The notes beneath the pieces were generated by a model. That model worked only from the letters and a program-made list of their open reading frames with translations. It did no database searches and was not told the DNA's origin. DNA of 34,390 bases. Origin: Nitrospirota bacterium (GTDB lineage Bacteria > JACPQY01). Below, in pieces: positions 28,910 through 34,390 of this stretch. The translations under genes and the position numbers were made by a program. Positions within the stretch are counted from its first letter, which is position 1. Each line of letters begins with the position of its first letter. The stretch spans positions 1 to 34,390 of the forward strand of contig JACPQY010000086.1 of NCBI GenBank assembly GCA_016190245.1, written 5' to 3'.

Positions 28910-29066
28910 TAGGCTCTGTTTGAAAACGACCTTAAGGGGATCGACCATGGGCAGGACGGTTCTTCGTAGGGGCGGGTCCTTGGACCCGCCCGAGGGGAGG
29001 GAGGGTGCAAGCACCCTCCCCTACAAGGATTGCGGTGGCCGGCGAAGGGTTTTCAAACAGAGCCTA
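28910..29066. mobile_element. 157-bp MITE with 18-bp perfect terminal inverted repeats
   Basis: The ends TAGGCTCTGTTTGAAAAC (28910-28927) and its exact reverse complement (29049-29066) bound a non-coding insert. The outer TA on each side may be a duplicated TA target. There is no transposase, so mobilisation would be in trans. The core holds a double-hairpin repeat (28966-29024). The insertion lies between the vapC-like gene and a lipoprotein gene. Confidence 0.85.
28966..29024. repeat. Double-hairpin REP-like repeat nested in the MITE
   Basis: Inverted ends GTAGGGG/CCCCTAC enclose two perfect 10-bp hairpins: GGGCGGGTCC/GGACCCGCCC (28970-28991, TT loop) and GGGAGGGTGC/GCACCCTCCC (28999-29020, AA loop). 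Size and layout match the element at 63-122, with different stem sequences. Confidence 0.75.
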
Positions 29067-29695: not shown

Positions 29696-29815
29696 CCCGC
29701 AAGCAGGCGGCGGAGTTTGAAGGGGGCGGACCCCCATACTACCACCCCCTGCCATGACGCGACGCCCTTGTGCAGGGGGACGTTGTTTCCTAGATTGCAT
29801 TGTGACTCGGCTGTG

Positions 29816-29915
29816 ATTCGGGGGACAGTATGCCTATTGTCTTCGCCTCCGGCCGGAGAAGGGACCGCCGGGCTGCGGTGTGAAGAGAGAAATGAATATC
29901 CTGTCCCCGGATTCC
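29816..29915. repeat. ~100-bp inverted-repeat element, copy A
   Basis: The left end ATTCGGGGGACAGTATGCC and the right end GATATTCATTT-type sequence (ending CTGTCCCCGGATTC) are imperfect inverted repeats. A central CTCCGGCCGGAG palindrome (about 29847-29858) is shared with copy B at 31231. No ORF. The right end touches the stop of the AAA/DUF4143 gene. It fills most of the gene-free stretch 29696-29914. Confidence 0.65.
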
Positions 29916-31135
29916 TATGGCAGGGAGCCGAGGAATCGGTCGGCGGAAAGAATCCACCGGTCCAGACCCGATTCGGAGACCTTACGGCACACTCCCGGCC
30001 CGTGAACGACTTGCACCGCCGTCGGGACCTTCATCCTGCGCTGGAAGTGTACAAGCGATGGGGCGAAGTCGCGCTCGGCCTGTTTCACCTCAATCAAGCA
30101 GACCGGAGCGCCCTTGCGGACTACGACGAAATCGACCTCCCGACCGTCGCGGTCACGAAGAAAGTGCAGGGCCACGTCCCCTTCGCCGACTGCTCTCCAG
30201 GTTTGGACGGCCTTGTACAGGTGGAGCGCCACCACGTTCTCGAACCGGACCGGTTCGGTCTCGACTTCACCCCAGTCGTAGAGATACGCCTTTGTTTCCT
30301 TCTTGATGGAGCGTGTGAGCCGGGCGGTGAACGGCGGAAGGCGGAACAGATAGAAGAAGCGCGACAGCGTCTCGATCCAATCGCGCACGCTTTCAAACGC
30401 AACGCCCAGGTCCTCCCGAAGCGCATTCATGGAGAGCGGGCTGCCGATCCGATCGGGGATCAGGGCGGCGAGCGCCTCGACGAGCGAGATGTCGCGGATG
30501 CCGGTCGCGGATCGGATGTCTTCCCGGATCAGTAGTGTGCGGCGCTCTTGAAGCCAGATGTTGTAGAACGACTCCTCCGCCCGGGTGAACGGTTCTGGAA
30601 ATCCTGAAAACCGGGTCAGGTGCTCATACGCCTCCCGCGAGGCGGCATCGTGCCCGCGCGGGTCGCTCAGCGATGCCTTGAAATCCTTCCACGTGGCCGC
30701 CCGGCCGGACAACTCGCCCACGGAGAGCGGGAAGAGGGGCAGCCCCATGTATCGCCCCAGCAGCGAATCCCCACCCCTCTTGAAGAGGTCGAGCCGCCCG
30801 CTCCCCGTCACAAGGAATCGGAATTCTTTCGAGTAGCCGTCGAAGGCGCCCTTGAGATACGACTTCCACCGCGCATACTTGTGGATTTCGTCCAGGACCA
30901 CAAGGAAAGGCTTCCTTGGATTCCGGTTTTCCTTCTCGAAGAAGTAGGGATCGCGGACGATCCGCTTCTGGTCCGTCAGGACATCCCAGTTGACGTATAC
31001 CCCCTGCCCGAACCTTTCCAGAAATCGTTTCGCCAGGGTCGTCTTTCCCACCTGCCGGGGCCCCGAGACAAAGGCCATCTTCGCGTAGTCACCCACCACG
31101 CGCCCGACCGGTCCCAGGAGCAGGCGCTCGATCAC
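29915..31135 (-). CDS. AAA ATPase with C-terminal DUF4143 nuclease-like domain
   Basis: A 406-aa protein. The AAA_14-type ATPase starts at once: Walker A GPRQVGKTT (residues 25-33), Walker B FLVVLDEIHKY near 80, sensor FLVTGSGRLDLF near 112. The C-terminal half is DUF4143-like and ends in a PD-(D/E)xK-like pattern, DGREVDFVVVRKGAPVCLIE followed by VK. Family members are common in archaea and accessory islands; function unknown. It starts at GTG, with a strong TTGACA-17-GAAAAT promoter whose -10 ends 6 nt before the start. It is bracketed by repeat copies A and B. Confidence 0.88.
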   Translation of the reverse strand: MIERLLLGPVGRVVGDYAKMAFVSGPRQVGKTTLAKRFLERFGQGVYVNWDVLTDQKRIVRDPYFFEKENRNPRKPFLVVLDEIHKYARWKSYLKGAFDGYSKEFRFLVTGSGRLDLFKRGGDSLLGRYMGLPLFPLSVGELSGRAATWKDFKASLSDPRGHDAASREAYEHLTRFSGFPEPFTRAEESFYNIWLQERRTLLIREDIRSATGIRDISLVEALAALIPDRIGSPLSMNALREDLGVAFESVRDWIETLSRFFYLFRLPPFTARLTRSIKKETKAYLYDWGEVETEPVRFENVVALHLYKAVQTWRAVGEGDVALHFLRDRDGREVDFVVVRKGAPVCLIEVKQAERDFAPSLVHFQRRMKVPTAVQVVHGPGVCRKVSESGLDRWILSADRFLGSLP

Positions 31136-31195: not shown

Positions 31196-31230
31196 TTGCC
31201 GCACCCCTTTCCCGTCCGATCCGGGGTGAT

Positions 31231-31336
31231 ATTCCGGGGACAGCATACCTATTTTCCTGGTCTCCGGCCGGAGGACAGAACACCGAGCGTCCCGGGTTCG
31301 GAGTCAAGGCAAAAACTAGCATACTGTCCCCGGAAA
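31231..31336. repeat. ~100-bp inverted-repeat element, copy B
   Basis: The ends ATTCCGGGGACAGCATACC (31231) and CTAGCATACTGTCCCCGGAA (31317-31336) are imperfect inverted repeats of about 20-24 bp. The centre TCTCCGGCCGGAG is shared with copy A. Same orientation as copy A, on the other side of the AAA/DUF4143 gene. No ORF. Confidence 0.7.
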
Positions 31337-31359: not shown

Positions 31360-32601
31360 TCAGGTTTCACAAATCGGATTGTACTGGCTCGAATCGCTGA
31401 AACCGAAGGTCCATGCAATGCCGTCTCGCACCGTCAGAATGTGTGGCGGCACACGCAGGAAGTGGGCCTTCCGCGTCGAAGGACACAGCACGGAAACGAA
31501 GGCGGACTTCTCGAGATCACGACCGTCAAGACGGTCCTGGGGATCGCCCGCGTGGAGGAGGAAGCTCTTGCCCAAGACATCGATATCCGCAACCGATACC
31601 AATGGAGTGTCGTAGAAAAAGCGGAACACACTCATACCGTAGTGGCGGGCGAGTTCAGCCCAGAACCAGTCCGCGCGATCAGCGGTCACAGGTATCCGCT
31701 CCTTGAATGGTGTTCGGCAGGTTTCGAGCAGCGAGGCGGAAACACTGAATCCATGTAGGTGATGAAGGCTCCACCCGTCGGGCCATCGCATGCTTGGACC
31801 CGTCTCGGAGTGGAGCCGCTGACGCGCGTCGGTCGCAATCAACGCGGGCCTCTCCGAGAGAACGGAGATATCATCGAAACCCCACCACAGAGCCCCCTCC
31901 CGGGCGATGGCCGCCATGGACATGGTCAGCGGCAATCGAATGCCGCTGAGCAAAGAAACCGCCTCATCGTCGGCAAGCCACCCCCCGGCAAAGGGCCCCC
32001 AGAAAGGGGGCACTTGCTCGGCCCGTTTCCGCAGCGCCGACGGGAGTAATCTGCGGACGGCGACGCTGACCTGTCTGAGCAGGCCGTACCTAACTTTTGG
32101 GCGAAGGATTTCGGTCATATTCCTTTCTATGGTCTCAACCAAACCCTTGGATCGCTTTACCTCCGCCATCATTTCGGACCCCTTCTCGACCCACTCTCGA
32201 TACCTGCCGCGAAGGCTCGATCCTTGTCTCGCGTTTCGACTTGGTGATGATTTCAGCAAAGCATTATGCGCTTGGGCCAGTTCGTCGTCGGGCCCGCCTT
32301 TCTCGGCCAAGGCAACCAGGTGCCGATAGCGCGGAGGCAGGGGTGCCACGGACTCTTGGGTGCGTTCGAGACGATGGATGGCACAGGCGACCACCCATCC
32401 GGCCAGAGGGTTCTGAACCCACAGATATTGACGGGGGCGTGGCAAGCCGAGCAACCGGTAGACCAGCCCCACGGCGGCTTCGGCCCCCCGTCGGTCTACC
32501 GGTCTGGTGGAGTAGGCAACTTGAAGCCAAGTGTCGGTGATTGCCCCCAACTCTTGTTCCACTGTGAACAGTCGCCCGGTAGGGCGCGTTTTCGACTCCA
32601 C
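31360..32601 (-). CDS. DUF6745-like protein of unknown function
   Basis: A 413-aa soluble protein with no signal or membrane segment. The C-terminal half carries stretches I associate with DUF6745: TGPSMRWPDGWSLHHLHG near residue 275, a YG-containing helix (ELARHYGMSVFRFF), AHFLRVPPHILT and GIAWTFGFSDS near the end, finishing in PICET. The N-terminal half is helical and Arg-rich. The GTG start has AGGA 9 nt upstream and follows the 98-aa gene by 19 nt, so the two form an operon. Function unknown; family assignment is from memory of motifs and needs a profile search. Confidence 0.6.
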   Translation of the reverse strand: MESKTRPTGRLFTVEQELGAITDTWLQVAYSTRPVDRRGAEAAVGLVYRLLGLPRPRQYLWVQNPLAGWVVACAIHRLERTQESVAPLPPRYRHLVALAEKGGPDDELAQAHNALLKSSPSRNARQGSSLRGRYREWVEKGSEMMAEVKRSKGLVETIERNMTEILRPKVRYGLLRQVSVAVRRLLPSALRKRAEQVPPFWGPFAGGWLADDEAVSLLSGIRLPLTMSMAAIAREGALWWGFDDISVLSERPALIATDARQRLHSETGPSMRWPDGWSLHHLHGFSVSASLLETCRTPFKERIPVTADRADWFWAELARHYGMSVFRFFYDTPLVSVADIDVLGKSFLLHAGDPQDRLDGRDLEKSAFVSVLCPSTRKAHFLRVPPHILTVRDGIAWTFGFSDSSQYNPICET

Positions 32602-32620
32602 TTATCAATCCTCGAGAGGC

Positions 32621-32917
32621 TCAGTCACCGACCACGACACTTCCGAATGGCCAGTACTCCTTCTGACGCAGTACTCGATACAGTCCCGGCCCCGGGAGGC
32701 GGATGGGGCCATGCTCCGGGTGGGACACCTCCGCCACTGGGCGAAATGTTCGGACGTACATCCCCCGCGGCGAAACGAAGACTTCCGCGGCTGAGGTATC
32801 CACCTCGTGTGTGTGCCCCGTCTCTTCCCCTTCGGCTAGAATGCCATGGTGAACGGGGCGCGCACCTCTTGGCATTCGAGCTACTTGCACGAAAAGGACA
32901 TCGCCTTGTCGGTACAT
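32621..32917 (-). CDS. Conserved 98-aa partner of the DUF6745-like protein
   Basis: A small beta-rich protein: MYRQGDVLFVQVARMP at the start, GILAEGEETGHTHEVD in the middle, then HPEHGPIRLPGPGLYRVLRQ and EYWPFG near the end. The GHxH and HxEHGPIxLPxGxYxVxRQxEY pattern is one I associate with small genes next to DUF6745 genes. The His residues could bind metal, but this is inference. ATG 32917 has a strong ribosome-binding site (GGAGGT, 5-6 nt away). It is the first gene of the two-gene unit, divergent from the WYL regulator with a palindrome between. Confidence 0.65.
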   Translation of the reverse strand: MYRQGDVLFVQVARMPRGARPVHHGILAEGEETGHTHEVDTSAAEVFVSPRGMYVRTFRPVAEVSHPEHGPIRLPGPGLYRVLRQKEYWPFGSVVVGD

Positions 32918-32976
32918 GTGTGACCTCCACGTCTATGAGTCTATGCTTGGCTGCTTTCCCTCGTTTACGGACATGA

Positions 32977-33006
32977 TAGAATAGAGGTGGGACAACGGTT
33001 GTCCCA
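32977..33006 (+). promoter_or_regulatory. WYL gene -10 box and 19-bp perfect palindromic operator
   Basis: TAGAAT (32977-32982) is a likely -10. TGGGACAACGGTTGTCCCA (32988-33006) is a perfect palindrome, 9-bp arms about one base, placed over the expected transcription start; a third half-site GGGACAA follows at 33007. The position fits repression of the WYL gene by itself and perhaps of the divergent two-gene unit. Confidence 0.6.
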
Positions 33007-33019
33007 GGGACAAGGGAAG

Positions 33020-34090
33020 ATGGGAACGAAAAGGAGAATGAGGGTCAGGGGTCGATACCGCAAGCCCACCTACAGCGCCGGTCTCAGGCTTGCGAGGATC
33101 GTCGCAGAACTGCCGGGTCGGCCTCTCGGTTGGAGCTTGGAGGGCATCGCGGATGAACTGGGTGTCCATGCGAAGACGGCGGCGCGTTACGCGAGGGCAC
33201 TCGCCGATCTGACGGACGGGGAGGGTCTTCCTCTCATCGTCAGCGAGAAGAAATGGGAAAAGACCGTACTGCGGTTCGCGGCGCGGGGAAGCGGACGAGG
33301 CGATCCAACCTCTTCTGCCATCGTCTCCCTTCACGTGGCGATCCTGCTCCTCCGCTTCGTGAGGGGTTCCTCCCTCCATCGGCCTTTGGAGGAAGCATTG
33401 CAAAAGGCACTCGATGGCCTGTCACCCACCGAGAGGCGCGCGCTCACCTCATTCGAGACGAAGATTCACTACGTCTCGGAGGGACCAAAGGACTACGCGC
33501 CCCAGGCCGGTCTCATCGACCGGATCCTGTACGCCGTTGTCCACCAGAGAAAGCTGGCCCTCGCCTACCTTTCGCCGTTCCAACCCGAAGGCTCCTGGAA
33601 GGCCTTTTACCATCCCTACACGCTGATGCTTTACAAGCGCGGGCTCTATCTCATCGGACACTCCGAGAGGCACGAACAAGTGAGAACTCTCGCGGTAGAG
33701 AGAATCCGAGACGCCACCGTTACGGAGCATGTGTTCGATGTCCCGACGGGATATTCTCCCGGCGCGCACACCGAGGGGTGTTTCGGCATCGTGAGCGGGG
33801 ATGCCGTGGAGGTTGTCATCCGATTCAAGAAATGGACGAAACCCTTGCTCATCGGAAGACAGTGGCACCCGACGCAACAGTTCAAAACGATGGCGGGTGG
33901 GGATATCCGCTTGCGGATGACCGTGCGGGGTATCCAGGAAGTTCTGCCCTGGGTCATGGGTTTTGGGCCGGCTGCGCGAGTTGAAAAACCCGATGTCTTG
34001 CGAAGGGCCGTCACAAGATGGGCGGCCGAGATGTGCGCCCAATACCGCCATGGACGGTGGGCAAGGGCAGAAGGAGGTTTCGATGGCTAG
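33020..34090 (+). CDS. HTH-WYL domain transcriptional regulator
   Basis: About 356 aa. N-terminal winged helix (PTYSAGLRLARIVAELPGRP, LEGIADELGVHAKTAARYAR), then a WYL ligand-sensing domain (IDRILYAVVHQRKLALAYLS, AFYHPYTLMLYKRGLYLIGH, VRTLAVERIRDATVTE) and a C-terminal extension domain (VEVVIRFKKWTKPLLIGRQW). WYL regulators often bind nucleotides or DNA and commonly control defence genes. ATG 33020 is chosen over GTG 32987, which lies on the operator, and ATG 33038; all have badly spaced ribosome-binding sites. It overlaps the next small gene by 8 nt. Confidence 0.85.
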   Translation: MGTKRRMRVRGRYRKPTYSAGLRLARIVAELPGRPLGWSLEGIADELGVHAKTAARYARALADLTDGEGLPLIVSEKKWEKTVLRFAARGSGRGDPTSSAIVSLHVAILLLRFVRGSSLHRPLEEALQKALDGLSPTERRALTSFETKIHYVSEGPKDYAPQAGLIDRILYAVVHQRKLALAYLSPFQPEGSWKAFYHPYTLMLYKRGLYLIGHSERHEQVRTLAVERIRDATVTEHVFDVPTGYSPGAHTEGCFGIVSGDAVEVVIRFKKWTKPLLIGRQWHPTQQFKTMAGGDIRLRMTVRGIQEVLPWVMGFGPAARVEKPDVLRRAVTRWAAEMCAQYRHGRWARAEGGFDG

Positions 34091-34247
34091 GCGGAGAAAG
34101 ATCACCACGGTCGAAGCATACAAGGGCGATCTTGGCGAGTATCTGAAGAAGTATAACTATCAACCCAAGCTTTCGAACAAACTGGACAACCTTGGAGGTG
34201 CGGCCTTCACACAGGAGCTCATCAACGAAATCGTGCTCTGGAGGTGA
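34083..34247 (+). pseudogene. 54-aa fragment of an EIVLWK-type conserved protein, probably truncated
   Basis: The product has EAYKGDLGEYLKKYNYQPKL and FTQELINEIVLWR, like the first 55 residues of a family of about 170-200 aa whose members continue EIVLWKVNR and later carry a MASTILRF/IIDQRxYR segment that looks DNA-glycosylase-like (family recalled from memory). Here a TGA follows IVLWR. Shifting frame by one base restores VN but then stops within six codons, so this is not a simple frameshift. It has a strong ribosome-binding site (AAGGAGG, 5 nt before ATG) and overlaps the WYL gene end. It could instead be a real small protein. Confidence 0.55.
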
Positions 34248-34324
34248 ATGGTTCTGCGGCATAAAGTGTGGGAATTTGATGGGGAAAAGAGAGCGACGTA
34301 ATCTCCAGATGTCGACAAAACATC

Positions 34325-34340
34325 TCCGCCTTTTGGCGGA
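34325..34340. other. Short hairpin upstream of the last gene
   Basis: TCCGCC-TTTT-GGCGGA... arms TCCGCC/GGCGGA about a short loop. It lies 20 nt before the start at 34361, just upstream of the ribosome-binding site AAAGGAG (34343-34349). It may be a leader structure or chance. Confidence 0.3.
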
Positions 34341-34360
34341 AGAAAGGAGACAACGTCGCC

Positions 34361-34390
34361 ATGGTGAATATAACAGTGGACGTGACCGAG
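34361..34390 (+). CDS. Start of a gene cut by the window edge
   Basis: ATG 34361 with AAAGGAG 11 nt upstream reads MVNITVDVTE to the edge. A competing frame is open from ATG 34279 to the edge (MGKRERRNLQMSTKHLRLLA...), very basic and with AGA/AGG-rich codons unlike the neighbours, so I prefer the former. Too short to identify. Confidence 0.4.
   Translation, partial: MVNITVDVTE

Follow-up and report, generated by a model that had tools for sequence, protein, structure and literature searches.

Investigation of a 34,390-base stretch of DNA (hereafter the window, which is one whole contig ending at 34390 in a genome of 86 contigs that is 84.8% complete) revealed a gene encoding a 98-aa protein and an adjoining gene encoding a DUF6745 protein. 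The two genes are nearly always found together across about 13 bacterial phyla, plasmids and phages, and their products thus almost certainly act together. The most probable reading is that of a co-acting, probably metal-binding two-protein unit, which in the window stands under a stress-type switch. The strongest association of the pair is with the STM4011-4015 radical-SAM cluster, which an earlier note on this DNA had missed. A pair kept over this range, with a function undescribed in the literature searched, is a clean target for further work.

Layout of the locus

The features of the locus are as follows.

31360-32601, minus strand: DUF6745 gene, 413 aa, helical N-terminal module and C-terminal DUF6745 domain (PF20530, AF2)
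32621-32917, minus strand: small gene, 98 aa (ORF list, alignment of 98 relatives, AlphaFold2, PHROG)
32988-33006, no strand: perfect palindrome TGGGACAAC G GTTGTCCCA, candidate WYL operator, a single site in the genome
32999-33013, no strand: second palindrome TTGTCCC A GGGACAA, which adds a third half-site and overlaps the first (sequence inspection)
33020-34090, plus strand: WYL-WCX regulator with N-terminal HTH, DriD-like, in an ORF opening with GTG at 32987 (ORF list, Pfam, PDB search)
34083-34247, plus strand: third gene, 54 codons, coupled to the WYL gene, a remnant of a 175-186-aa family
34361-34390, plus strand: possible start of another gene (MVNITVDVTE...), cut by the contig end

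The DUF6745 gene starts 19 nt downstream of the small gene on the same minus strand, and this operon faces the WYL regulator across the exact 19-bp palindrome, an arrangement described in the earlier note and borne out when coordinates and palindrome were re-checked. The third ORF overlaps the stop of the WYL gene by 8 nt, and as the contig stops at 34390, sequence further to the right is lost. The profile search that the note had proposed recognised DUF6745 in the 413-aa protein (PF20530, 4.5e-23, 82.1 bits against a cut-off of 27); the small and third proteins matched no Pfam family, and none of the four proteins (small, DUF6745, WYL, third) matched an NCBIfam model.

Conservation of the pair

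A genome scan with the single small-protein sequence gave no match, and a profile of eight small proteins was needed, with which 427 relatives were detected in the genome collection, of which 80 were kept, and a further 62 among viral contigs. A DNA-level search of plasmids was also without a match; tblastn of plasmids with the small protein found seven replicons, with DUF6745 immediately downstream in 7/7. Of 153 loci examined with local profiles of both proteins, 135 have DUF6745 adjoining the small gene; at 15 of the other 18 the contig ends within about 0.8 kb, so that the pair is present at 135 of the 138 loci with enough flank. This is co-occurrence far above chance, and the conserved pairing suggested in the earlier note therefore stands. 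The true exceptions are three loci (L039, L069 and L088); in the genome of L088 the only DUF6745 lies elsewhere on the same contig, and the genome of L069 has none.

The two genes share a strand in every paired locus, as they do in the window, where they are likewise adjacent. Both gene orders occur, small gene first in 112 loci and DUF6745 first in 24, the latter mostly viral, and the genes typically overlap or are separated by a few bases; that they stay adjacent although the order is reversed points strongly to a joint function. The reverse search, starting from DUF6745 in 60 Streptomycetales genomes, found the small gene adjoining 28 of 30 DUF6745 loci. Between the distance matrices of the small and DUF6745 proteins the correlation is r=0.84, compared with at most 0.12 in 300 shuffles, which reflects co-inheritance, not contact. 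No natural fusion of the small protein with DUF6745 was found among the loci surveyed.

The small protein

Alignment of 98 relatives of the small protein revealed the motifs R-Q-G-D, G-E-x-T-G-H-x-H, H-x-E-H and Q-R/K-E-Y, in which G5, D6, E31, G34, H37, H66, H69 and D98 are invariant and T33, H35, Q85, E87 and Y88 show at least 97% conservation; the window protein keeps nearly all invariant residues. The four near-invariant histidines H35, H37, H66 and H69, from which the metal-binding reading is drawn, may form a metal site. The AlphaFold2 model is all-beta (mean pLDDT 90.2), and a search of the PDB gave no chain with a Foldseek E-value of 0.001 or below or a Z score exceeding 2.9; this was also the search in which a cupin fold was looked for. 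In a viral structure library, one phage protein matches the model well (E 4.5e-6, TM 0.80) and a protein of Acidianus rod-shaped virus 2 matches it moderately (TM 0.58, E 0.025). At the sequence level the small protein is a relative of phrog_27831 (2.6e-11), a phage family without functional annotation.

The DUF6745 protein

DUF6745 is the C-terminal domain of the 413-aa protein (AF2 mean pLDDT 78.3), and the Pfam entry describes neither the pairing with a small protein nor the two main types of N-terminal module found here, which are helical (97 of 135, the window included) and leucine-rich. No paper naming DUF6745 was found in the literature search. The conserved core of the family is N-x-E-x-R-R, with a motif R-V-P-P ... 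A-W, of which the window protein keeps RVPP, AW and R319, while N308 is replaced by D and R318 by A (both about 97-98% conserved in the family), and Y380 by H. With two conserved residues lost, the window protein may be a divergent or specialised copy. In three phage or provirus loci (L126, L016 and L119) the N-terminal module carries long arrays of four-residue QVxx repeats, spanning about 160-176 residues and perhaps differing in length from one relative to another.

A fold search with the C-terminal domain placed HigB toxins in several of the top rows (Z 3.3 to 2.1), the best of which is a weak match (Z 3.3 over 68 residues, rmsd 5.2). These matches, together with the small mobile operon, would suit a toxin-antitoxin pair in which the DUF6745 C-terminus is a HigB/RelE-like toxin and the small protein its antitoxin. 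Such a pair is quite improbable, however, because the Z values lie within the chance range, the toxin would have 300-500 aa and carry a recognition module, either gene order is common, and the pair is found in a lytic phage and in biosynthetic operons.

The WYL regulator and its candidate operator

The regulator has WYL (5e-11) and WCX (1.1e-12) domains in Pfam. Its listed GTG start at 32987 sits at the palindrome, so that the ATG at 33020, preceded by AAGGGAAG, is the likelier start, and the protein probably begins there. The nearest solved structures in the PDB (E 4e-10, alignment over residues 21-347) are the DeoR-family entry 8tp8, presumed here to be DriD, and a WYL entry whose aligned sequence is identical. 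The whole palindrome TGGGACAACGGTTGTCCCA is exact at 32988-33006, and GGGACAACNGTTGTCCC occurs once in the whole assembly, even with one mismatch allowed.

DriD, an activator triggered by ssDNA, recognises a pseudo-palindrome of 20 bp (PMC12340889); SiwR binds ssDNA and upon genotoxic stress switches on a neighbouring operon of two putative metalloenzyme genes (PMC10693628); and CapW is a repressor acting at 19-24-bp palindromes beside a divergent operon (PMC9122588). The window regulator shares the WYL-WCX organisation with DriD and SiwR and, like that of SiwR, its gene lies beside a two-gene operon of possible metal-binding character, but the operator sequence of these systems differs from the window palindrome. 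With CapW and BrxR it shares the divergent WYL gene and an intergenic palindrome of about 19-24 bp, but the payload in the window is neither CBASS nor BREX, and the regulator is closer in sequence to DriD in the PDB search. Judged from its sequence, the window cassette has the architecture of WYL-regulated systems of the CapW/BrxR/DriD type, an HTH-WYL-WCX protein with a palindrome at a divergent promoter, and by analogy the pair is probably under WYL control here. The layout fits DriD, SiwR and CapW, and thus activation or repression alike. Because the regulator resembles the ssDNA-sensing DriD, damage- or infection-induced expression of the pair is plausible.

A WYL regulator as a conserved partner of the pair was considered and rejected, as a WYL gene adjoins the pair only in the window and at one other locus (L030) in a search of limited sensitivity; the WYL link is therefore local and not part of the module. 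Of the regulated module proposed in the earlier note, probable WYL control in the window is retained and the regulator's membership of the module is not. The other locus, in Rhodanobacteraceae (L030, 7902-13894), has the pair followed by a WYL gene that is divergent from a tandem AAA+ ATPase.

The genome of the window also encodes, on contig C29, a 52% identical WYL paralog without the pair, as well as WYL fragments. This region (L192, 7306-10762) comprises the paralog, two WYL fragments and a 381-aa gene after the last fragment, and represents WYL cassettes with changing partners. The paralog has TGACAGC-G-GCTGTCA at its gene start; the core GACARCNGYTGTC was detected in six places, compared with one for a control, and since these are mostly away from WYL genes, an operator shared between the two regulators is only suggestive.

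Genomic contexts of the pair

The main chromosomal context of the pair is the STM4011-STM4015 cassette (models NF038073-NF038076 and NF006067), whose products are two radical-SAM proteins, a sulfatase/phosphodiesterase-like hydrolase, an ATP-grasp-like protein and the leucine-rich-repeat protein STM4015. At least three of these genes lie within 8 kb in 35 of 80 genome loci, and of the 60 Streptomycetales genomes 26 have both STM4013 and DUF6745, 28 lack both, and each gene is without the other in 3 (Fisher p=1.5e-10). Nearly all DUF6745 proteins whose N-terminal module is leucine-rich are STM-linked. Literature searches on STM4013 and STM4015 returned passing mentions only.

These three lines of evidence, the last recalling the leucine-rich nature of STM4015 itself, favour a role of the pair as an accessory enzyme or scaffold of the STM4011-4015 peptide- or metabolite-modifying route, from which the phage and window copies would have become detached while keeping a similar substrate. 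This is the closest competitor to the two-protein stress unit, although we regard it as possible but somewhat unlikely, given that no STM gene lies within 8 kb at any of the 62 viral loci and that Obscuribacterales and the window carry the pair without STM genes. In the window, whose right side ends at the contig end, no STM protein match was found and the cassette does not adjoin the pair.

The phage copies stand alone, often near replication or methylation genes, and neighbours at viral loci include DnaB, integrase, ParB, terminase and methyltransferases. In the cultured lytic cyanophage Ma-LMM01 (L226, gp173-gp181) the pair is gp175-gp174, situated between gp176 and the uracil-DNA glycosylase gp173, directly before the latter, in a replication operon with DNA polymerase and dUTPase. 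The neighbouring genes gp173, gp178, gp180 and gp181 are classed as middle genes in PMC5780444, where gp174 and gp175 are not mentioned individually. By linking the STM4011-4015 cluster to stand-alone phage copies, including this cyanophage, the pair offers a tractable route to both functions.

In Obscuribacterales and some others the pair has neither an STM nor a phage context. On the tree of the pair the three contexts require 19 changes, compared with about 61 when labels are shuffled; the contexts are clustered, yet with repeated moves. At a locus in Deinococcus ficus (L006, 9360-11219) a VWA-domain gene follows the pair, and a search within 8 kb found no STM genes; the VWA gene brought MoxR-vWA conflict systems into consideration, which were set aside, the text of the key paper having no mention of STM40xx.

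Third gene, and possible defence role or decay

The third gene matches only the first 47-54 or so residues of proteins of 175-186 aa (E 4e-14, 2e-9), and no homologous continuation follows it in any frame, so that its earlier description as truncated is correct. The term DNA-glycosylase-like, also applied to it, is reasonable as a putative label; a full-length relative gives a weak helix-hairpin-helix (HhH) score (0.027). No viral relatives were found. The full-length relative with the HhH score, a protein of 186 aa, is encoded on a Methylobacter plasmid (L160, 4944-5504), next to genes for Hachiman HamA, a helicase and a RecB-like nuclease.

That neighbourhood, the divergent WYL gene with palindrome as in CapW (PMC9122588), and the WYL and tandem AAA genes adjoining the pair at L030 would be in keeping with a pair that serves anti-phage defence and is induced by way of WYL, on the model of CapW-CBASS or BrxR-BREX. 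This remains an unlikely explanation, because PADLOC (2023 library) has no model for the small protein or DUF6745, flanks in cells and viruses show no enrichment of defence genes, and the pair is common in phages themselves, one of them lytic. The earlier suggestion of defence or nucleic-acid stress is thus kept for its second part, which is plausible by analogy; for defence, the flanks offer only kinases and methyltransferases.

The truncation of the third gene bears also on whether the pair could be a decaying, phage-derived leftover without function in the window host, as do the WYL fragments elsewhere in the genome, the conserved residues lost from DUF6745 and the placement of the window pair among viral copies on the tree, which is poorly supported. 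Decay of this kind has a low probability, since both the small and DUF6745 ORFs are intact, nearly all invariant residues of the small protein are kept and the candidate operator is perfect.

Proposed function

The best explanation, held tentatively, is that the pair is a metal-binding nucleic-acid-stress unit, placed in the window under a DriD/CapW-like WYL switch. The small protein would be compact and beta-barrel-like, with H35, H37, H66 and H69 forming a metal site together with E31, E68 and E87, and would bind the DUF6745 protein, which would supply its C-terminal domain together with a recognition module at the N-terminus that can be exchanged, a helical one or, in STM-linked copies, a leucine-rich one. 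In the window, a DriD/CapW-like regulator binding the palindrome would respond to ssDNA or damage signals by switching the pair, and formerly also an HhH-type DNA-repair-like gene. The weakest step is the one that follows, in which nucleic acids or nucleotides would be the target of the pair under stress or when phages infect. As part of the same tentative explanation, the pair would move between phages and cells as one unit. Against it, WYL is not a conserved neighbour and the window DUF6745 is without the conserved N308, R318 and Y380; many chromosomal copies, moreover, keep company with genes for radical-SAM, ATP-grasp and hydrolase proteins rather than with DNA-repair genes.

A broader and more doubtful version is a universal module in which a new beta fold with a four-histidine metal site and a DUF6745 protein with swappable recognition perform new chemistry on nucleic acids or peptides; if true, it would serve phage replication, a bacterial radical-SAM pathway and a DNA-damage-sensing cassette such as that in the window.

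Neighbouring mobile elements

The region to the left of the locus contains a palindrome-ended element and repeats, in agreement with the MITE and paired repeats reported earlier. The MITE-like element (28910-29066, 157 bp) is bounded by perfect inverted repeats of 18 bp (TAGGCTCTGTTTGAAAAC). Another element, of about 105 bp, is present in two diverged copies (about 70-75% identical), at 29809-29911 and 31224-31334, the right one with inverted ends TTCCGGGGACAG...; the two copies flank a gene for an AAA_14-DUF4143 ATPase (29915-31135), which matches the PADLOC candidate family PDC-S01 (1.2e-50).
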